Assembly (NCBI RefSeq): GCF_014323725.1
Contig: NZ_JABVED010000020.1
Span: forward strand, 1-64,000
Origin: Actinokineospora xionganensis
GTDB lineage: Bacteria > Actinomycetota > Actinomycetes > Mycobacteriales > Pseudonocardiaceae
DNA: 64,000 bases
Direction: 5' to 3'
In this document: positions 3,401-11,596 of the stretch, in pieces
How positions within the stretch are numbered: the first letter of the stretch is position 1
How the letters are laid out: each line of letters begins with the position of its first letter
Made by a program: the position numbers and the translations under genes
Notes under the pieces: generated by a model
What the model saw: the letters and a program-made list of their open reading frames with translations, nothing else
The model's database searches: none
Told to the model about the DNA's origin: nothing

Positions 3401-5063
3401 CGAGCGGTTCATCGCCATCGAGGACGCGGGCCGGGTCCGCGACGCGCTGGGCACCGCGCTGCCGGTCGGCGTGCCCGAGGTGTTCACCGAGCCGGTCGCC
3501 GATCCGTTGGGCGACTTGCTTTCCCGCTACGCCCGCACCCATGGGCCGTTCCCCGCGGCGGAGGCCGCCGCCCGGTTCGGGCTCGGCGCGTCGGTGGTGA
3601 CCGGGGTGCTGGAGCGGCTGGCGGGCGCGGGCAGGCTGGTGCGCGGCGAGTTGCGGCCGATCAGCGGCCCGGAGCCGCCCGCGGCCGTCGAATACTGCGA
3701 CGCCGACGTCCTGCGGCGGCTGCGGCGCTCGTCGCTGGCGCGGCTGCGGGCCGAGGTCGAACCGGTCGAACCGGCGGCGCTGGGCCGGTTCCTGCCCAGC
3801 TGGCACGGCATCGGCCGCAAGTCCCGCTCGTCCGCGACCGCGGATGACGTGCTGGCGGTGGTGGAGCAGCTCGCGGGAGCGCCCATCCCGGCGAGCGCGT
3901 TGGAGTCGCTGGTCCTGCCCTCGCGGCTGCGCGGCTACTCCCCTGCCCTGCTCGACGAGCTCACCGCCGCGGGCGAGGTCACCTGGTGCGGCACCGGCAC
4001 GCTGGCGGGCGGCGACGGCTGGATCGCGCTGGCACCCGCCGATGTCGCCGACCTGCTGCTCCCCGATGTCGAGGACACCGTCCCCGACACCCCGCTGCAC
4101 ACGGCGGTCCTGTCCGCTTTGGACGGTGGCGCGCTGTTCTTCCGGCAGGTCGCCGACCGCACCGGCGCCGTCCTGCTCGACGGCGGCGCCAAGTCCCCGA
4201 ACGACCCGGATGTCATCGCGGCGCTGTGGGATTTGGTGTGGGGCGGCCTGATCACCAACGACACAATCGCGCCGTTGCGTGCTCTGGTCTCCGGCAAGGG
4301 CGCCGCGCACCGGCCCCGCCGGACAGCTCCCCGCGGGCGCTACGCCCGGCTGCGCACCGCCCGCCCGGACATGCCCACCCGCACCGGACCACCGACCGTC
4401 GGCGGCCGCTGGTCCCTGGTCGTCCCCCGCGAACAAGACCCGACGCGACGCGCCCACGCCCGGGCGGAGGCATTCCTTGAACGCCACGGGGTTCTCACTC
4501 GCGGCGCACTGGACACCGAGCGGGTCACGGGTGGCTTCAGCGGCATCTACAAGGTGCTGCGGGCGATGGAGGAGTCGGGCCAGATCATCCGCGGCTACGT
4601 CGTGGAGGGCTTGGGCGCTTCCCAGTTCGCCGCCCGCGGCGCGGTCGACCGCCTCCGGGCACTGTCGCGCGCGGACCCGGCCGACGCCCCCGAATTCCCC
4701 GCGACCGTCCTCGCCGCCGCCGACCCGGCCCAGCCGTACGGCGCGGCACTCACGTGGCCGGAGGCGTTGGGGGAAGGCAAACACCGCCCGGGCCGCAAGG
4801 CCGGGGCGCTGGTGGTGCTGGTGGACGGCGTCCCCGCCATGTACGTCGAACGCGGCGGCCGCACCCTACTGTCCTTCACCGACGAGGAACCTTCCCTACG
4901 CGCCGCCGCCGAAGCCCTCTCCCGCGCCGTCCGAGACGGCTGGCTCGGCTCACTGTCGGTCCAGAAGGCGGACGGCGAAATAGCCCTCACCTCATCCCTG
5001 GCCACAGTCCTCCGCGACGCGGGTTTCCGAGCCACCCCCAAGGGCCTGCGCCTACGCGCATAG
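495..5063 (+). CDS. lhr: Lhr-type ATP-dependent DNA helicase
   Basis: A 1522-residue superfamily 2 helicase of the Lhr (large helicase-related) family, which translocates 3' to 5' on single-stranded DNA and unwinds DNA or RNA:DNA hybrids. Walker A is APTGSGKT (residues 45-52), motif II is DEVH (169-172), followed by SATVRP and, in the second RecA domain, SSLELGIDMGAVDLVVQ and QRVGRAGH. After about residue 500 comes the long Lhr-specific C-terminal region (winged helix, Lhr core, DUF4145-like tail), so the length is that of the full Lhr family and not of Lhr-Core. The ATG at 495 has no clear ribosome site; a TAAGCA element about 6 bases before TGACAT suggests a leaderless transcript, but this is weak. 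In mycobacteria Lhr is induced by DNA damage; no SOS box was found in front of this copy. Confidence 0.95.
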   Translation: MAVNALDLFTPATRQWFAGAFVAPTEAQTGAWRAAAAGEHALVVAPTGSGKTLAAFLWALDRLAAEGPPVEAKHRCRVLYVSPLKALAVDVQRNLRAPLAGIRQASHRLGLPEPDITVGMRTGDTPADERRAFARTPPDVLVTTPESLFLLLTSAARESLRGVRTVIVDEVHAVAGAKRGSHLALSLERLDALLERPAQRIGLSATVRPVDEVSGFLGGGRPVTLVQPKIGKTVEIRVEVPTEDMSSLTEQHNDDGNDRTTASIWPKVERRVLELVRQHRSTIVFANSRRLAERMTARLNELADEEPVDLDRFPAEAIGQSGLTTMASPVIARAHHGSMSREQRTLVEEDLKSGRLPCVVATSSLELGIDMGAVDLVVQVEAPPTVASGLQRVGRAGHQVGAVSRGVMFPKFRGDLVSCAVVAERMAQGAIEAVRYPRNPLDVLAQHIVAMVAVEPWTVTELATLVRRAAPFASLPDSALYAVLDMLAGRYPSEEFGELRPRVTWDRISGELRGRPGAQRLAVTSGGTIPDRGLFTVMTPPDERGAGSRVGELDEEMVYESRVGDTFLLGTSAWRVQDITHDRVIVTPAPGEPARMPFWKGDAPGRPLELGRALGKFVRELSSVDDSAARDRAAVAGLDGWATDNLLAYLSEQREATQHVPDDRTIVVERFRDELGDWRLVVHSPFGGQVNAPWALAIGARLRERRGVEAQIAHGDDGIVIRLPDAVDDLGQEVVAGAEDVLLDPDEVEQIVVAEVSGSALFAARFRECASRSLLLPRRDPRRRTPLWQQRQRSAQLLSVAAKYEQFPVVLEAMRECLQDVYDVGGLRELMSDVRARRVRVVEVQTQAASPFARSLLFGYVGMFLYGSDVPLAERRAAALSLDSALLAELLGSEAIRELLDPDVLAEVERSLQRLDPNRHARHAEDAADLLRFLGDLSEAEAQARGVAPQWLAELEAARRVLRVRIAGDERFIAIEDAGRVRDALGTALPVGVPEVFTEPVADPLGDLLSRYARTHGPFPAAEAAARFGLGASVVTGVLERLAGAGRLVRGELRPISGPEPPAAVEYCDADVLRRLRRSSLARLRAEVEPVEPAALGRFLPSWHGIGRKSRSSATADDVLAVVEQLAGAPIPASALESLVLPSRLRGYSPALLDELTAAGEVTWCGTGTLAGGDGWIALAPADVADLLLPDVEDTVPDTPLHTAVLSALDGGALFFRQVADRTGAVLLDGGAKSPNDPDVIAALWDLVWGGLITNDTIAPLRALVSGKGAAHRPRRTAPRGRYARLRTARPDMPTRTGPPTVGGRWSLVVPREQDPTRRAHARAEAFLERHGVLTRGALDTERVTGGFSGIYKVLRAMEESGQIIRGYVVEGLGASQFAARGAVDRLRALSRADPADAPEFPATVLAAADPAQPYGAALTWPEALGEGKHRPGRKAGALVVLVDGVPAMYVERGGRTLLSFTDEEPSLRAAAEALSRAVRDGWLGSLSVQKADGEIALTSSLATVLRDAGFRATPKGLRLRA

Positions 5064-5147
5064 GAGCAGGGCAGGGCACCCACGCACGCATCCGTATCCA
5101 CGCCCGAAATCGGGACCAACGGCCCGTTGCGATGCCGGGGCACCCTC

Positions 5148-5747
5148 TCAACCACCATGAAACTCATTGCCTTCCGGATCAACGCGAACCTCAGCCCCAA
5201 CCGCCCCCACAGCCAACCGGACCCGGTTCCTGACAACCTTCGGCTCCACGACCCGAACAAACTCCAACCACGGCCCAACACCTTCAAGCGAAGCGAAGTC
5301 ATCAGTCGCGAGCGCCACCCGGCGGCCGGTGATGGTCGACCACGCCAAAGCCTGGCTCGCGGGTGCGAGGGCGTCGACCACGATCGCCGCCACCGGGCCG
5401 GTCGCCGCGTATTCGGGGCGGGGTTCCAGGACACAGAACTCGTTTCCCTGTGGGTCGCGCAGTACTGCCCACGGGGTGCGGCCCTGGCCGATGTCGGCGT
5501 GGGCGGCGCCCAGGGACAGTGCGTGGGAGACGATGTCGCCCTGGTCGGCGGCCGACTGGGAAGCCAGGTCGAGGTGGACCCGGTTTTTCACCGTCTTCGG
5601 CTCGTCCGCGGGCACGAACGTCAGCGTCAGCTCAGGAGCGTGGACTTGCGTCCCGTCGAGTGGCACGTGGAGCAGGTCGGCCCAGAACCTCGCCGACACC
5701 AAGGGATCGGCACTGTCCACGACGACGTTCACCTGGCCGGTCGACAC
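5148..5747 (-). CDS. VOC (glyoxalase-fold) family protein
   Basis: A 199-residue protein made of two vicinal-oxygen-chelate half domains. The first begins VNVVVDSADPLVSARFWADLL and ends FVPADEPKTVKNRVHLDL; the second begins AAIVVDALAPASQALAW and ends PKVVRNRVRLAV..DPEGNEFHGG. The paired NRVHLDL and DPxGNEF motifs are those of the actinobacterial glyoxalase-like domain group. Substrate and metal use cannot be told from the sequence. It starts 10 bases after the stop of the next VOC gene, so the two are probably co-transcribed, and the pair looks like a tandem duplication. Confidence 0.85.
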   Translation of the reverse strand: MSTGQVNVVVDSADPLVSARFWADLLHVPLDGTQVHAPELTLTFVPADEPKTVKNRVHLDLASQSAADQGDIVSHALSLGAAHADIGQGRTPWAVLRDPQGNEFCVLEPRPEYAATGPVAAIVVDALAPASQALAWSTITGRRVALATDDFASLEGVGPWLEFVRVVEPKVVRNRVRLAVGAVGAEVRVDPEGNEFHGG

Positions 5748-5757
5748 GTTGTCGACG

Positions 5758-6492
5758 CTAGCGGCTGAAGCGGCGGACCGGGATGTCGATGGCGGGTTCG
5801 CACACCAGGTTGAACTCGTTGCCCTCGGGGTCGGCCAGGACGCGGTCGGACAGCCGGGTGGCGCCGAGGGCGAGCAGCCAGCCGACCGGGTCCTCGATGT
5901 CGGTGGGGAACATGTCGAACTGGATGCGGTTCGGCGTGCGCTTCGGGTCGGGGACGCGGAGGAATTCGATCCAGGGCCCGTGGGTGTCGAGGGGGCGCAG
6001 GGCGGCCGAGTCCTCGCAGACGTGCACGACCGGCCACCCGGTCGCCGCCGACCAGAAGTCCGCGACCCTGGCCGGGGCGACCGAGTCGATCACGACGGCG
6101 GCGAGCGGGCCGGTGTCGGTGTAGAGCTCGCGTGGTTCGAGGACGCAGAACTCGTTGCCGTCGGGGTCCTGGAACACCGTCCACGGCATCGCGGGACCTT
6201 GGCCGATGTCGACGACGTGGGCGCCGATGTCCGCGGCCAGGGAGGTGAGGACCTGGTACTCGTGTGGGCTCTCGGTGGCCAAGTCGACGTGGATGCGGTT
6301 CTTGCCGGTCTTGGCACCGTGCGCGGGGACAAACACCAGGTCAAGGTCGCAGCCACCGATCTCGGGCCCCACCAGTCTGCGGCCCTGAGGGCCGTCGGGA
6401 ATGGCGGTGCCGCCGAGCATGACGTACCAGAACTCGGCGGCGGCACTCGGATCCGCCGCTTCGATCACGACGCTCGCCAGGCGGGTGGACAT
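5758..6492 (-). CDS. VOC (glyoxalase-fold) family protein, paralogue of its neighbour
   Basis: A 244-residue two-module VOC protein. Module one starts MSTRLASVVIEAADPSAAAEF and contains FVPAHGAKTGKNRIHVDLA and DPDGNEFCVLEPRE; module two starts AAVVIDSVAPARVADFW and ends FDMFPTDIEDPVGWLLAL..DPEGNEFNLVCEP. The open frame extends upstream to 6747, but that stretch is rich in Arg and lacks family similarity, so the ATG at 6492 was chosen. It lies upstream of and 10 bases from the second VOC gene. Function is unknown beyond the fold; the family includes dioxygenases, glyoxalases and antibiotic-resistance binders. Confidence 0.85.
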   Translation of the reverse strand: MSTRLASVVIEAADPSAAAEFWYVMLGGTAIPDGPQGRRLVGPEIGGCDLDLVFVPAHGAKTGKNRIHVDLATESPHEYQVLTSLAADIGAHVVDIGQGPAMPWTVFQDPDGNEFCVLEPRELYTDTGPLAAVVIDSVAPARVADFWSAATGWPVVHVCEDSAALRPLDTHGPWIEFLRVPDPKRTPNRIQFDMFPTDIEDPVGWLLALGATRLSDRVLADPEGNEFNLVCEPAIDIPVRRFSR

Positions 6493-8440: not shown

Positions 8441-8506
8441 CGTGGCCTCCTCGCAAGATTTCCGTCACGGCTGGTGACGGGCGGCGCCGAGGGGAAGCCG
8501 GCGGCG

Positions 8507-8543
8507 CTCGGTGGTGAGGCGCTTCCCCCGCCCCACCACCGAG
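8507..8543. other. Stem-loop in leader of the HEPN gene
   Basis: Inverted repeat CTCGGTGGTG (8507-8516) and CACCACCGAG (8534-8543) with a 17-base loop. It lies between the SOS box and the HEPN start, inside the likely leader RNA of the leftward transcript. Function is unknown. Confidence 0.4.
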
Positions 8544-8548
8544 CAGAT

Positions 8549-8564
8549 TCGAACTAGTGTTCGA
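8549..8564. promoter_or_regulatory. LexA SOS box
   Basis: TCGAACTAGTGTTCGA is a perfect match to the actinobacterial SOS box TCGAAC-N4-GTTCGA bound by LexA. It lies between the divergent HEPN gene (start 8440, minus) and the YbaK gene (start 8667, plus), about 105 bases from each, so the sequence alone does not say which is controlled. A weak TTAGGC / 17-base spacer / TAGTTC promoter pointing to the HEPN gene would overlap the box. Confidence 0.8.
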
Positions 8565-8666
8565 ACAACGCCAGCCTAACCCGGCGGCTCGCGGGCTTCA
8601 AGCAGGCTCGGGTGTGACCTGTGGACTACTTGCCCACGACCAGATCAGGGATGGTGAGATGGAGCG

Positions 8667-9176
8667 GTGAGCACACTCGAACATCCCGCCGTGGCCAAGG
8701 TCGCCGCGGCTCTGCGCGAAGCGGGGATGGAGCAGGCCGCCGACGGGATCCGGATCCTCGACGCCGACGTGAAGACCGCCGCGGCGGCCGCGGCGGCGTT
8801 GGGGGTGGACGTGGGGGCGATCGCCAACAGTCTGGTCTTCCGCACCGACAGCGACCCCCTGCTCGCCCTCACCTCCGGCGCCCACCGCGCCGACACCGGG
8901 CTGCTGGCCGAGCTGGCCGGCGTGCGGGAGGTGGGACGGGCCGACGCCGCCTACGTCCGGGAGCACACCGGCCAGCCGATCGGCGGAGTCGCCCCCACCG
9001 GCCACCCGGCGCCGCTGAAGACGCTGGTCGACCGGCACCTCGCCCGCCACGCCGTGGTGTGGGCTGCCGCGGGCCACCCGAAGTCGTTGTTCCCCACGAC
9101 GTTCGCCGACTTGGTGACGCTCACCGGGGGCACGGCTGCGGATGTCGCGCACGAGGAGGATGATCGGGCACCGTGA
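8667..9176 (+). CDS. ybaK: YbaK/EbsC-type aminoacyl-tRNA deacylase
   Basis: A 169-residue protein of the YbaK/ProX editing family, which hydrolyses mischarged aminoacyl-tRNAs such as Cys-tRNA(Pro) in trans. The family pattern is clear: GVDVGAIANSLVFRTDSDPLLALTSGAHRAD, then ADAAYVREHTGQPIGGVAPTGHP, with the conserved Lys of the family apparently replaced (VFRTD). The C-terminus has VVWAAAGHPKSLFPTTFADL. The GTG start at 8667 follows GGTGAGATGGAGC. Its TGA overlaps the GTG of the acetyltransferase by four bases, so the two form an operon. Confidence 0.9.
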   Translation: MSTLEHPAVAKVAAALREAGMEQAADGIRILDADVKTAAAAAAALGVDVGAIANSLVFRTDSDPLLALTSGAHRADTGLLAELAGVREVGRADAAYVREHTGQPIGGVAPTGHPAPLKTLVDRHLARHAVVWAAAGHPKSLFPTTFADLVTLTGGTAADVAHEEDDRAP

Positions 9177-9739
9177 CCGCCGCCCCCTCCCCCCGCGTCG
9201 ACCGCTTCGCTGAGCTGAGCTCCGAGGAGCTGCGGGTGCGCCTGCGCGAGGCGCTGGCGCTCTACGTCACCGCCATGCGCTACCCGAAGGGCACAGTTGA
9301 GCAACGGGCCCCGATGTGGCTCGCGCACATGCTCCGCGCGGGCTGGCGTTGCGTGGCGGCCTTCGACAGCGACGACCGCATGACCGGCATCGCCTACGGC
9401 TACCGGGGTTCGCCCGGGCAGTGGTGGCACGAGCAGGTGCGCCGCGGCGTGACCGAGAACCGCGGGCCCGCTGTCGCCGAGGCGTGGATGTCGGACTACT
9501 TCGAGCTGACCGAGCTGCACGTGCTCCCGGACCGCCAGGGGCAGGGCATCGGCGAGGAACTGGTGCGCAGGCTGGTCTCCGGGGCGGACACGGCCAACGT
9601 GCTGCTGTCCACCCCGGAGGGGCCCTCCCGCGCCTGGCGGCTCTACCGCAGGCTCGGTTTCGACGACGTCCTGCGCGACTACCAGTTCACGGGCGACCCA
9701 CGCCCTTTCGGTGTCCTGGGCCGCCCGCTTCCCCTCTAG
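9173..9739 (+). CDS. GNAT-family N-acetyltransferase
   Basis: A 188-residue acetyl-CoA-dependent acetyltransferase. The N-terminal half (RLREALALYVTAMRYPKG..RAPMWLAHMLRAGWRCVAAFD) leads into the GNAT core: ELTELHVLPDRQGQGIGEELVRRLV carries the acetyl-CoA pyrophosphate-binding loop (RQGQGIG), and SRAWRLYRRLGFDDV is the C-terminal strand-helix element. The substrate is unknown. The GTG start overlaps the preceding stop. The TAG stop is the first three bases of a long palindromic element (9737-9901), so the C-terminus is defined by that element. Confidence 0.88.
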   Translation: MTAAPSPRVDRFAELSSEELRVRLREALALYVTAMRYPKGTVEQRAPMWLAHMLRAGWRCVAAFDSDDRMTGIAYGYRGSPGQWWHEQVRRGVTENRGPAVAEAWMSDYFELTELHVLPDRQGQGIGEELVRRLVSGADTANVLLSTPEGPSRAWRLYRRLGFDDVLRDYQFTGDPRPFGVLGRPLPL

Positions 9740-9901
9740 GTCTTGTCTGACAAATCTCGGCGGCGAGAGTCGTGATCGAGGTGGTTCCTGGCGGTGCGGC
9801 CGGAATGCCCTCGTACCGGGTTGTACTCGGGCGTTCCGGCCGTGCCGTCAGGGGCCGCCTCGGCGCGGCTCTCGCTGTCGCGATTTGTCAGACAGGACCT
9901 A
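9737..9901. repeat. 165-bp near-perfect palindromic element (MITE-like)
   Basis: The outer 20 bases are inverted repeats with one mismatch: TAGGTCTTGTCTGACAAATC at 9737-9756 and the complement of TAGGTCCTGTCTGACAAATC at 9882-9901. The similarity continues inward on both arms for about 76 bases (GCGAGAG, CGAGG and CGGCCGGAAnGCCC shared), up to a small loop between two GTAC copies. The outer TAG on each side is exactly the stop codon of the two convergent genes. It has no coding capacity. It could be a miniature inverted-repeat element with TA ends or a strong two-way terminator; no second copy was noticed in the window. Confidence 0.8.
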
Positions 9902-11596
9902 CAGAGCCGCGAGGCGGGTGCGCAGGGTGTCGAGACCCATGGCGCCCATCTCGAGGGCTCGCTGGTGGAACGTCTTGAGCGAGAAGTCCTCGCCCTGCCG
10001 CGCCTGGTATTCGTCGCGGGCCTGCAGCCAGAGGCGTTCGCCGAGCTTGTAGGTCGGGGCCTGGCCCGGCCAGCCGAGGTAGCGATCGATCTCGTCGCGC
10101 ACGTGCGCCTTGTCGGTGATCGTGCGGGTGAGCAGGAACTCCAAGCCCAACTCGGGAGACCACCGCTCGCCCTCGTGGAAGCCCGCCCCACGGGGGATCT
10201 CCAGCTTCAGGTGCATGCCGATGTCGATGATCACCCGGGCCGCGCGGAAGATGTTGGCGTCGAGCATGCCCAGCAGGTCGCCGTCGTCCTGCAGGTAGCC
10301 GAACTCGCGCATCAGACGCTCGGCGTAGAGGGCCCAGCCCTCGCCGTAGGCGGGCACCCAGGTGAGCAGGCGCTGGAACTTGTTGAGACTCTCCCCCTGG
10401 GAGACCGCGGTGGCGATCTGCAGGTGATGCCCGGGCGCGCCCTCGTGGTAGACCGTGGTGACCTCGCGCCAGGTGGAGAACTCCTCCCGGTCGGCGGGCA
10501 CCGACCACCACATGCGCCCCGGACGGCTCCAGTCGTCGGTCGGGCCGGTGTAGTACGCGCCGACACCGCCGCCGGGCGGGGCGATCTTGCACTCCAGCCG
10601 CATGATCTCGTCGGAGATGTCGAAGTGCACGCCCCGCAGGTCGGCGAGCGCGCGGTCGGACAGGCCCTGCATCCACTCCTCGAAGGCCTTCTTGCCGCGC
10701 ACCTGGTAGCGGGGGTCGGCGTCGAGCTTGGCGGCCGCGTCGGCGATGGTGCCGCCGGGGACGATGCGGCCCGCGACCTCCTTCATCTCCGTCTCGAGCC
10801 GGGTGAACTCCTCCCAGCCCCACTCGTAGGCCTCGCGCAGGTCGAGGGTGGCGCCGGTGTACTCGCGCGACCAGAGCCGGTAGCGCTCCTCGCCGACGGC
10901 GTCCTCACCGCTCGACTTGGGAGCCAGCTCACCGGTGAGGAAGTCGGCGAGTTCGCCGTAGGCCTCGGCGGCGACCCGGGCGCCCGTGTCGATCTCGGCG
11001 CGCAGGGCGCCCTCGGCGACACCGTCCGCGCTATCGGCGAACGTGGCGAAGAACGACTTGGCGCCGCCCCGGCCGGACCAGGTCTGGCACTGTTCGGCCG
11101 TCTTGGTGATCTGGCGCAGCGCCGCGACGTCACCCCGGGCCGCGGCGAAGCGCAGCGACTCCTGGTAGCCGGCGAGCGCGGCGGGAACGGCGGACAGCCG
11201 CTTGGCGATCACCGCCCAGTCCTCGGCGGTGGCGGTCGGCATCAGGTCGAAGACCTGCCGCACGTCCTGCGGGGGGCTCGCGATCACGTTGAGGGTGCGG
11301 TAGAACTCGCCCGCCTCGTGCAGCTCGGCCTCCAGGCCGACCCGTTCGAGGAACACCGCCTTGGCGTTGGCCTCCGACACGTCGGCCGGTTCGGCGGCGC
11401 GCATCGCGGCCAGCGCGGCGGTGGCGATGGCCGCTCTGTGGTCGACGCCCTCAGGCGACAGGTCGGGAAGTCGGTCGTCATGCCCGGCGATACCGAGGTA
11501 GGTGGCGAGGATCGGCTCCGCCGCCGCCGAGTCGTCGACATAGGAATCACTGATCTTGTGCACGCCGGTGGGCGGTAAGGACACCATGCCTCGCAC
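9899..11596 (-). CDS. DUF885-family metallopeptidase-like protein
   Basis: A protein of about 565 residues of the DUF885 family, which resembles zinc carboxypeptidases. The family signature EVTTVYHEGAPGHHLQIATA carries the HExxxGHH zinc motif, followed by the helix WALYAERLMREFGYL with the third ligand glutamate, and RAARVIIDIGMHLKLE. The tail ends AYDEYQARQGEDFSLKTFHQRALEMGAMGLDTLR, typical of the family. Possible starts are GTG 11596, ATG 11587 and GTG 11584; none has an ideal ribosome site. No signal peptide is visible, so it probably acts in the cytoplasm. Its substrate is unknown. The TAG stop is provided by the palindromic element. Confidence 0.88.
   Translation of the reverse strand: MRGMVSLPPTGVHKISDSYVDDSAAAEPILATYLGIAGHDDRLPDLSPEGVDHRAAIATAALAAMRAAEPADVSEANAKAVFLERVGLEAELHEAGEFYRTLNVIASPPQDVRQVFDLMPTATAEDWAVIAKRLSAVPAALAGYQESLRFAAARGDVAALRQITKTAEQCQTWSGRGGAKSFFATFADSADGVAEGALRAEIDTGARVAAEAYGELADFLTGELAPKSSGEDAVGEERYRLWSREYTGATLDLREAYEWGWEEFTRLETEMKEVAGRIVPGGTIADAAAKLDADPRYQVRGKKAFEEWMQGLSDRALADLRGVHFDISDEIMRLECKIAPPGGGVGAYYTGPTDDWSRPGRMWWSVPADREEFSTWREVTTVYHEGAPGHHLQIATAVSQGESLNKFQRLLTWVPAYGEGWALYAERLMREFGYLQDDGDLLGMLDANIFRAARVIIDIGMHLKLEIPRGAGFHEGERWSPELGLEFLLTRTITDKAHVRDEIDRYLGWPGQAPTYKLGERLWLQARDEYQARQGEDFSLKTFHQRALEMGAMGLDTLRTRLAAL

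Follow-up and report, generated by a model that had tools for sequence, protein, structure and literature searches.

A palindromic MITE-like element with IS5-type ends between convergent GNAT and DUF885 genes of Actinokineospora xionganensis

A palindromic element and its locus

The window analyzed here is a stretch of 64,000 nucleotides from Actinokineospora xionganensis, in which a GNAT acetyltransferase gene and a DUF885 gene converge on a palindromic element (Table 1). The terminal TAGs of the element are the stop codons of both genes, GNAT on the plus strand and DUF885 on the minus strand, as a preliminary description made from the sequence had proposed and as the open reading frames, ending at 9739 (+) and 9899 (-), confirm. 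The same holds for its inverted 20-base ends, TAGGTCTTGTCTGACAAATC (9737-9756, +) and TAGGTCCTGTCTGACAAATC (9882-9901, -), which differ at one base; two matches to the end pattern (without TA) occurred in 0 of 100 shuffles of the window. The element proper is bordered by a TA dinucleotide on each side, the limits of this 161-bp segment (9739-9899) being set by the TA ends and by comparison with related copies.

Table 1. Features at the junction of the two convergent genes, in positions of the window
Feature	Position	Strand	Remarks and basis
GNAT acetyltransferase gene	9173..9739	+	Stop TAG 9737-9739; ORF, Pfam
Left TA target-site duplication	9737..9738	.	With the element's first G forms the GNAT stop TAG; sequence
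Palindromic element GGTCTTGTC...GACAGGACC, 161 bp	9739..9899	+ (loop strand, best-folding RNA)	Copies, fold
Left terminal inverted repeat, GG class	9739..9756	+	14/18 bases like the end of the L195 IS5-family element
Conserved apical loop CTCGTACCGGGTTGTACTCGG	9810..9830	+	Own-genome matches, 34/200 genomes
Right terminal inverted repeat	9882..9899	-	End comparison, shuffles
DUF885 gene	9899..11596	-	Stop TAG 9901-9899; ORF, Pfam
Right TA target-site duplication	9900..9901	.	With the element's last C forms the DUF885 minus-strand TAG; sequence

The term near-perfect palindrome, used in the preliminary description, does not fit the DNA, where the reverse-strand self-match of 9737-9901 reaches 76% identity across 171 bases, but it does fit the plus strand read as RNA. 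Outside the loop, the arms of this strand carry 12 G.T mismatches, two others, one gap and no A.C, and since mismatches at the DNA level are thus mainly G.T, which pairs in RNA, the plus-strand RNA is almost fully paired. Its predicted fold is one nearly unbroken hairpin (-150 kcal/mol, z = -19.7, equaled by 0 of 200 shuffles); the complementary strand folds at -106.9 kcal/mol. A chance origin of the hairpin is ruled out by the shuffles of ends and fold together with the reversed-pattern control described below. Likewise, a known Rfam RNA is ruled out as its identity, since a search of positions 8500-11000 with the Rfam 15 covariance models (E up to 1) gave no hit in the element; the two weak matches obtained both lie outside it.

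Within the genus, 14 of 16 genomes have a GNAT gene in the flank of DUF885, and in 13 of these, our own genome included (12 of the 15 others), it faces DUF885; in one locus (L222) it lies on the opposite side. The locus without the element was found in the relative G200 (DUF885 protein, 95% identity to that of the window). Here the sequence reads CCCCTCTAGAACCCTCTAGAGAGCC, two tandem 10-base units, CCCTCTAGAA and CCCTCTAGAG, and both proteins keep the same final residue and TAG stops (GNAT, 1-188 of 188; DUF885, 2-565 of 565). As the protein ends are the same in the element-free G200, the insertion regenerated existing stops and supplied no new ends, contrary to the initial proposal that the element had fixed the C-termini. 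The simplest ancestor of the window site would be one 10-base unit with a single CTAG stopping both GNAT and DUF885, and a CTAG common to both genes is the most likely ancestral site; under such a dual-stop model, the pre-insertion sequence common to both stops would have been CTCTAGAG. However, the empty site is not clean, given the additional 10-base unit in G200, and the right TA of the window is followed by C where G is expected, which counts against a clean insertion. An arrangement of this kind is present in G205 (L226), where a single CTAG stops both genes, the GNAT end reading GCC-TAG and the DUF885 end ATC-TAG over the same four bases. At L231 (G100) the two genes overlap: the DUF885 stop CTA lies within the GNAT frame, and GNAT stops three residues beyond it at another CTAG.

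Dispersed copies, target site and stop codons

The loop motif CTCRTACCGGGTTGTACTYGG has 12 matches in the 6.8-Mb genome of the organism (up to 3 mismatches; reversed pattern, 0), and BLAST added two further diverged copies, L003 and L007. Across the family, the loop (up to 2 mismatches) was detected in 34 of 200 genomes other than G200, with a maximum of 118 matches in one genome and the reversed pattern in none. The genera among the matches listed are Actinophytocola, Amycolatopsis, Actinokineospora, Actinocrispum and Actinosynnema, besides two Streptomyces; within the genus of the window, the loop occurs at 269,976-269,996 of NZ_BSTR01000001.1 (Actinokineospora sp. NBRC 105648). Of 80 copies with TA ends, 78 measure 160-164 bp between the TAs. 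No close copy on a plasmid or phage emerged: blastn of the window element against a plasmid and a phage collection gave no match in either.

Several copies depart from the common form. The loop matches in Streptomyces endocoffeicus (with hairpin) and S. violaceusniger (loop only; L130 and L137) are distant from Actinokineospora, and horizontal spread is their probable source. Two copies of the own genome appear decayed: L008, in which much of the right arm is missing, and L033, which seems to be one half of an element and retains a single end. L013 and L010, also of the own genome (C12 and C69), have the same inner arms, and about 35 outer bases are replaced on both arms of L013, in register and mutually complementary (by eye), amounting to a change of ends on both sides. 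The window-type end (up to 2 mismatches) occurs in 6 of 297 genomes, the own included, and eight of its loci lie in the other genomes. L290 is a full hairpin and L297 a hairpin that carries the loop; neither L292 nor L295 has a partner end, and L291, L293, L294 and L296 are inverted pairs of about 50-64 bp without the loop, which are perhaps internally deleted forms. At L167 (5113-6531), two hairpin copies with like ends lie on either side of an ORF (5035-6369) that is aminotransferase-like by eye; the arrangement resembles a composite element and is possibly one of a passenger.

TA dinucleotides flank both ends in 110 of 166 distinct copies, bearing out the suggestion of TA duplications, and one end in 36 and neither in 20, copies with an end complementarity below 11/16 being omitted from this count. 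The 56 copies that have no TA at one or both ends count against a TA insertion model. CTA...TAG is the reading of 97 of these 110, and that of one, the window copy, is CTA...TAC. L013 has CTAA at its start and TTAG at its end, in keeping with a duplication of the two bases TA within CTAG and not of four bases. In G200 the element is missing at all nine sites that can be compared across, and three of these are plain CTAG (L012, 82/84 aligned; L004, 82/84; L006, 73/84). Two more are of TA type, ATAA for L013 (82/84) and CTAA for L009 (68/84, with poorer flanks); the L010 site shows a 13-base gap difference and the L003 and L007 sites do not follow the TA pattern. L005, L008, L011 and L014 were matched on separate or single flanks only, and L045 had no match in G200 among the scored hits. 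Short, repeated and devoid of a transposase gene, with terminal inverted repeats, a TA duplication and both filled and empty sites, the element has the properties by which MITEs are recognized.

To ask how often its ends stop genes, an end TAG was scored as a stop where the 100 codons before it form an open frame rich in GC3, for which 101 of the 110 copies had enough flank. Stops were seen at both ends in 25, at the left only in 24, at the right only in 28 and at neither in 24, that is, at one end or more in 77 of 101. Other CTAGs (n = 186), drawn from 110 loci (L076-L185) and not, like the tested copies, from all loci, were stops on both strands in 6 cases, on one in 59 and on neither in 121 (at least one, 65), and an out-of-frame control gave 5 of 422. 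With one copy per tight cluster (44 clusters), the numbers were 13 for both ends, 9 left, 12 right and 10 none; the TA-ended copies of the own genome with stops at both ends are L001, L005 and L006. The excess over other CTAGs indicates that the two-stop arrangement is recurrent, and it recurs because TA insertion of an element of the form G...C in CTAG restores TAG on both strands. CTAG itself was counted 357 times in L076-L185, the CTAGs of the elements themselves included; base composition predicts about 2,320, so that it is about 6.5-fold rarer than expected. Since CTAG is rare and 65 of the 186 non-element CTAGs are stop-like, such a target steers insertions toward gene ends.

These data also bear on the alternative, raised at the outset, of a plain bidirectional transcription terminator that carries the stops of both genes and is kept here by selection on them. 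Its position between convergent genes and the stable fold of both strands would suit a terminator, as would the other hairpins in the GNAT/DUF885 gap of some relatives (e.g., G190, G179, G045); yet the exact 13-base loop core is absent from all 12 gaps of the genus relatives in which GNAT faces DUF885, several relatives have gaps of 0-28 bases with scarcely any fold, and the same element is present at many unrelated loci. The element has no T-run, no intrinsic terminator was called in 9500-10150, and a hairpin selected by the host would not keep the same strand polarity in either orientation, as the copies do (see below). The preliminary description had held that a lack of other copies would favor a terminator; with the loop matched 12 times in the own genome and detected in 34 of 200 genomes, the contrary holds, and a private terminator as the origin of the element is refuted by its dispersed copies and empty sites. 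We therefore regard the terminator as improbable, and note that the element may act as one after its insertion.

IS5-family elements with similar ends

A candidate source of mobility was found in insertion sequences with transposases of the DUF4096 type, which we take to be IS427-like members of the IS5 family. Of 50 DUF4096 loci scanned, 14 have a TA-flanked inverted repeat (at least 13/18), and six of them, representing four distinct IS, belong to the GG class, all read CTA...TAG and agree with hairpin ends in 14-17 of 18 bases: 17 for L186 and L195, 16 for L304, L312 and L317 (one type) and 14 for L208. Two further loci reading CTA...TAG, L194 and L201, match at 10 and 11 of 18 and the remaining six at 10-12. 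In 500 shuffled ends the maximum was 13/18, a control that used one end where the scoring used the better of two IS ends, and the 14/18 of L208 barely exceeds it. In L195 (G094), both ORFs are typed transpos_IS5_3 and the ends read GGGCGTGTCTGGTGGATCTT. The window's own end matches this IS at 14/18, a score that no shuffle of that end attained in 1000, and the other four IS compared at 8-12/18. At L195:807-1946 the L195 element stands back to back with a hairpin copy whose ends resemble its own, and one CTAG is common to both.

Transposase elements with matching ends are accordingly present in relatives, as these IS5-family elements, and not in the own genome, which gave no DUF4096 and no DDE_Tnp_4 hit. 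No full-length IS with the exact window end was found in 297 genomes (up to 2 mismatches, loci inspected). Hairpin ends of the GT class had no IS partner among the 50 DUF4096 loci scanned. DUF4096 IS do not track the element: of the genomes tested, 9 of 12 with the loop and 7 of 10 without it have them. They are absent from G014 and G124, with 16 and 11 loop matches, and number 36, 43 and 21 in the loop-free G001, G012 and G022. Given this poor tracking and an own genome devoid of such an IS, the spread was probably episodic, with the enzyme since lost. From the likeness of the ends, we infer that IS5 enzymes move the element. The initial idea of a mobile, MITE-like element is thus sustained by the further copies, the TA duplications, the element-free relatives and the matching ends of the IS5 family.

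Strand polarity of the hairpin and comparison with known elements

The excess of G.T over A.C noted for the window extends to the family. In representatives of 41 clusters, aligned in a way that does not favor wobble pairs, mismatches amount to 329 G.T, 77 A.C and 263 others, G.T exceeding A.C in 37 clusters, falling short in 3 and being equal in 1; a few of these representatives pair weakly and probably reflect loop matches by chance. When changes on one side of a Watson-Crick pair are counted within clusters, they fill 188 G.T, 39 A.C and 95 other cells, based on pair sets from RNA folds that allow G.U, with a wobble-neutral alignment giving the same direction. Counting each variant once per column leaves 111, 29 and 71, and the 90 copies that average 97.5% identity to their cluster consensus give 59, 15 and 37; the copies are related by descent and the counts are not independent. 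G.T is gained by both routes (C>T, 106; A>G, 82), and 39 variants from 154 G.T pairs lead back to Watson-Crick, compared with 15 A.C variants from 970 Watson-Crick pairs. With both C>T and A>G contributing and G.T reverting frequently, one-strand deamination is no explanation.

The folds agree with this polarity. In an RNAalifold analysis of 33 diverged elements (alignment A1, 33 of 39 length-filtered representatives, the weak or irregular L048, L072, L074, L075, L166 and L263 being omitted), compensatory change is seen in 47 of 58 pairs. All 146 copies that have a TA at one end or both, and all 32 cluster representatives, fold more stably as the loop strand than as its complement, the mean difference being 31 kcal/mol. 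Copies with a single stop are sense to the neighboring gene in 24 cases and antisense in 28, and host transcription hence does not account for the polarity. The total of G.T over A.C is four- to sixfold in all four gene-orientation contexts, and G.T pairs are spread across most columns in both orientations (by eye); changes unique to one copy show a weaker excess in sense-only copies (14 G.T versus 9 A.C). Judged from these comparisons, polarity and compensatory change together are the signature of selection on a hairpin of one strand, as RNA (or single-stranded DNA).

A different cause of complementary arms would be hairpin template switching (quasipalindrome correction), the G.T excess then being a relic of an ancestral hairpin or a product of strand-biased mutation. 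The outer arms of L013, replaced in register on both sides relative to L010, are what template switching could produce, and the shared descent of the copies and the weak bias of single-copy changes in sense-only copies also lean this way. Template switching, however, predicts no polarity between G.T and A.C. Deamination biased to one strand would leave the reverse changes no more frequent, yet these are common among G.T pairs while A.C variants are scarce, and the spread of G.T over most columns in both orientations likewise counts against this cause. We consider this cause rather unlikely. A more far-reaching possibility, which we put forward tentatively and think doubtful, is that of a mobile structured-RNA gene, in which a hairpin RNA of about 160 nt with a conserved GUAC-CGGGUU-GUAC head would be produced from one strand and be under selection for the benefit of the element itself, for instance by binding a host protein or the transposase or by acting in trans, its DNA moving on borrowed IS5 ends. 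If true, it would explain polarity and compensatory change in either gene orientation and across subfamilies with different ends.

Our preferred reading is that of a short mobile element without a gene of its own (MITE), which would be moved by an IS5-family (DUF4096-type) transposase and inserted at the TA within the palindrome CTAG, with TA duplicated. CTAG can stop a gene on either strand, or two convergent genes together, and insertion would turn C-TA-G into C-TA-G...C-TA-G, restoring TAG on both sides. As the element starts with G and ends with C, both proteins would remain unchanged and the element would be tolerated. Its RNA hairpin would be produced as the neighboring genes are transcribed and be kept by selection, in the simplest case as a protective or insulating structure at the mRNA 3' end. 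The MITE with IS5-type ends, its insertion in CTAG and the restoration of stops on both strands are well supported; for the whole reading, with the one-strand RNA hairpin kept, we estimate a probability of about 0.84. It presents a transposon that can strike two gene ends at once without harm, the target being a two-strand stop that its terminal bases restore, and the one-strand signature makes it directly testable whether the spread of small mobile repeats involves nothing but their DNA or also an RNA under selection. No description of this element family, and neither dual-stop targeting nor one-strand covariation in print, was found in the open-access literature searched.

A first comparison is with the DUF4096-type IS of the IS5 family and their MITEs, which share GGGCGTGTCC-like ends and a TA within CTA...TAG; the element described here differs in having no transposase and in forming a hairpin along its whole length. 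In mycobacteria, CTAG direct repeats have been described for an IS5-family IS (PMC9241763).

A second comparison is with REP sequences. According to PMC3733652, the TAG termini of GTAG REPs are often the stop codon of flanking ORFs, as are those of our element, and these REPs lie mainly between convergent or same-direction ORFs; REPs are given there a length of 20-40 bp and a link to tyrosine transposases. If the element were REP-like and such an enzyme (RAYT/IS200-IS605) moved it in single-stranded form, the hairpin's strand polarity would be explained. The long symmetrical ends, the TA duplication in CTAG and the IS5-type ends are nevertheless foreign to it, and the Y1 transposase, which the own genome lacks, is equally frequent in tested genomes with and without the loop (2 of 10 each). 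As the presence of Y1 does not track the element, we reject an identity with REP/RAYT systems and hold this origin to be highly improbable.

YPAL, a repeat of similar kind, is said to lie directly behind stop codons and to raise transcript levels, as reportedly described by De Gregorio in 2006. YPAL/RU-2, ERIC, NEMIS and RUP resemble the element in size (about 100-170 bp), in their mostly intergenic position and in their stem-loop, several having TA ends and RUP being linked to an IS through its ends (PMC2229807). YPAL measures about 168 bp according to the same paper, which reports both occupied and empty sites for it, and it is set apart from our element by the lack of TA termini and by duplications of 3-26 bp. 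What distinguishes the element of the window from these small hairpins is its targeting of CTAG, the restoration of stops on two strands and the covariation of one strand.
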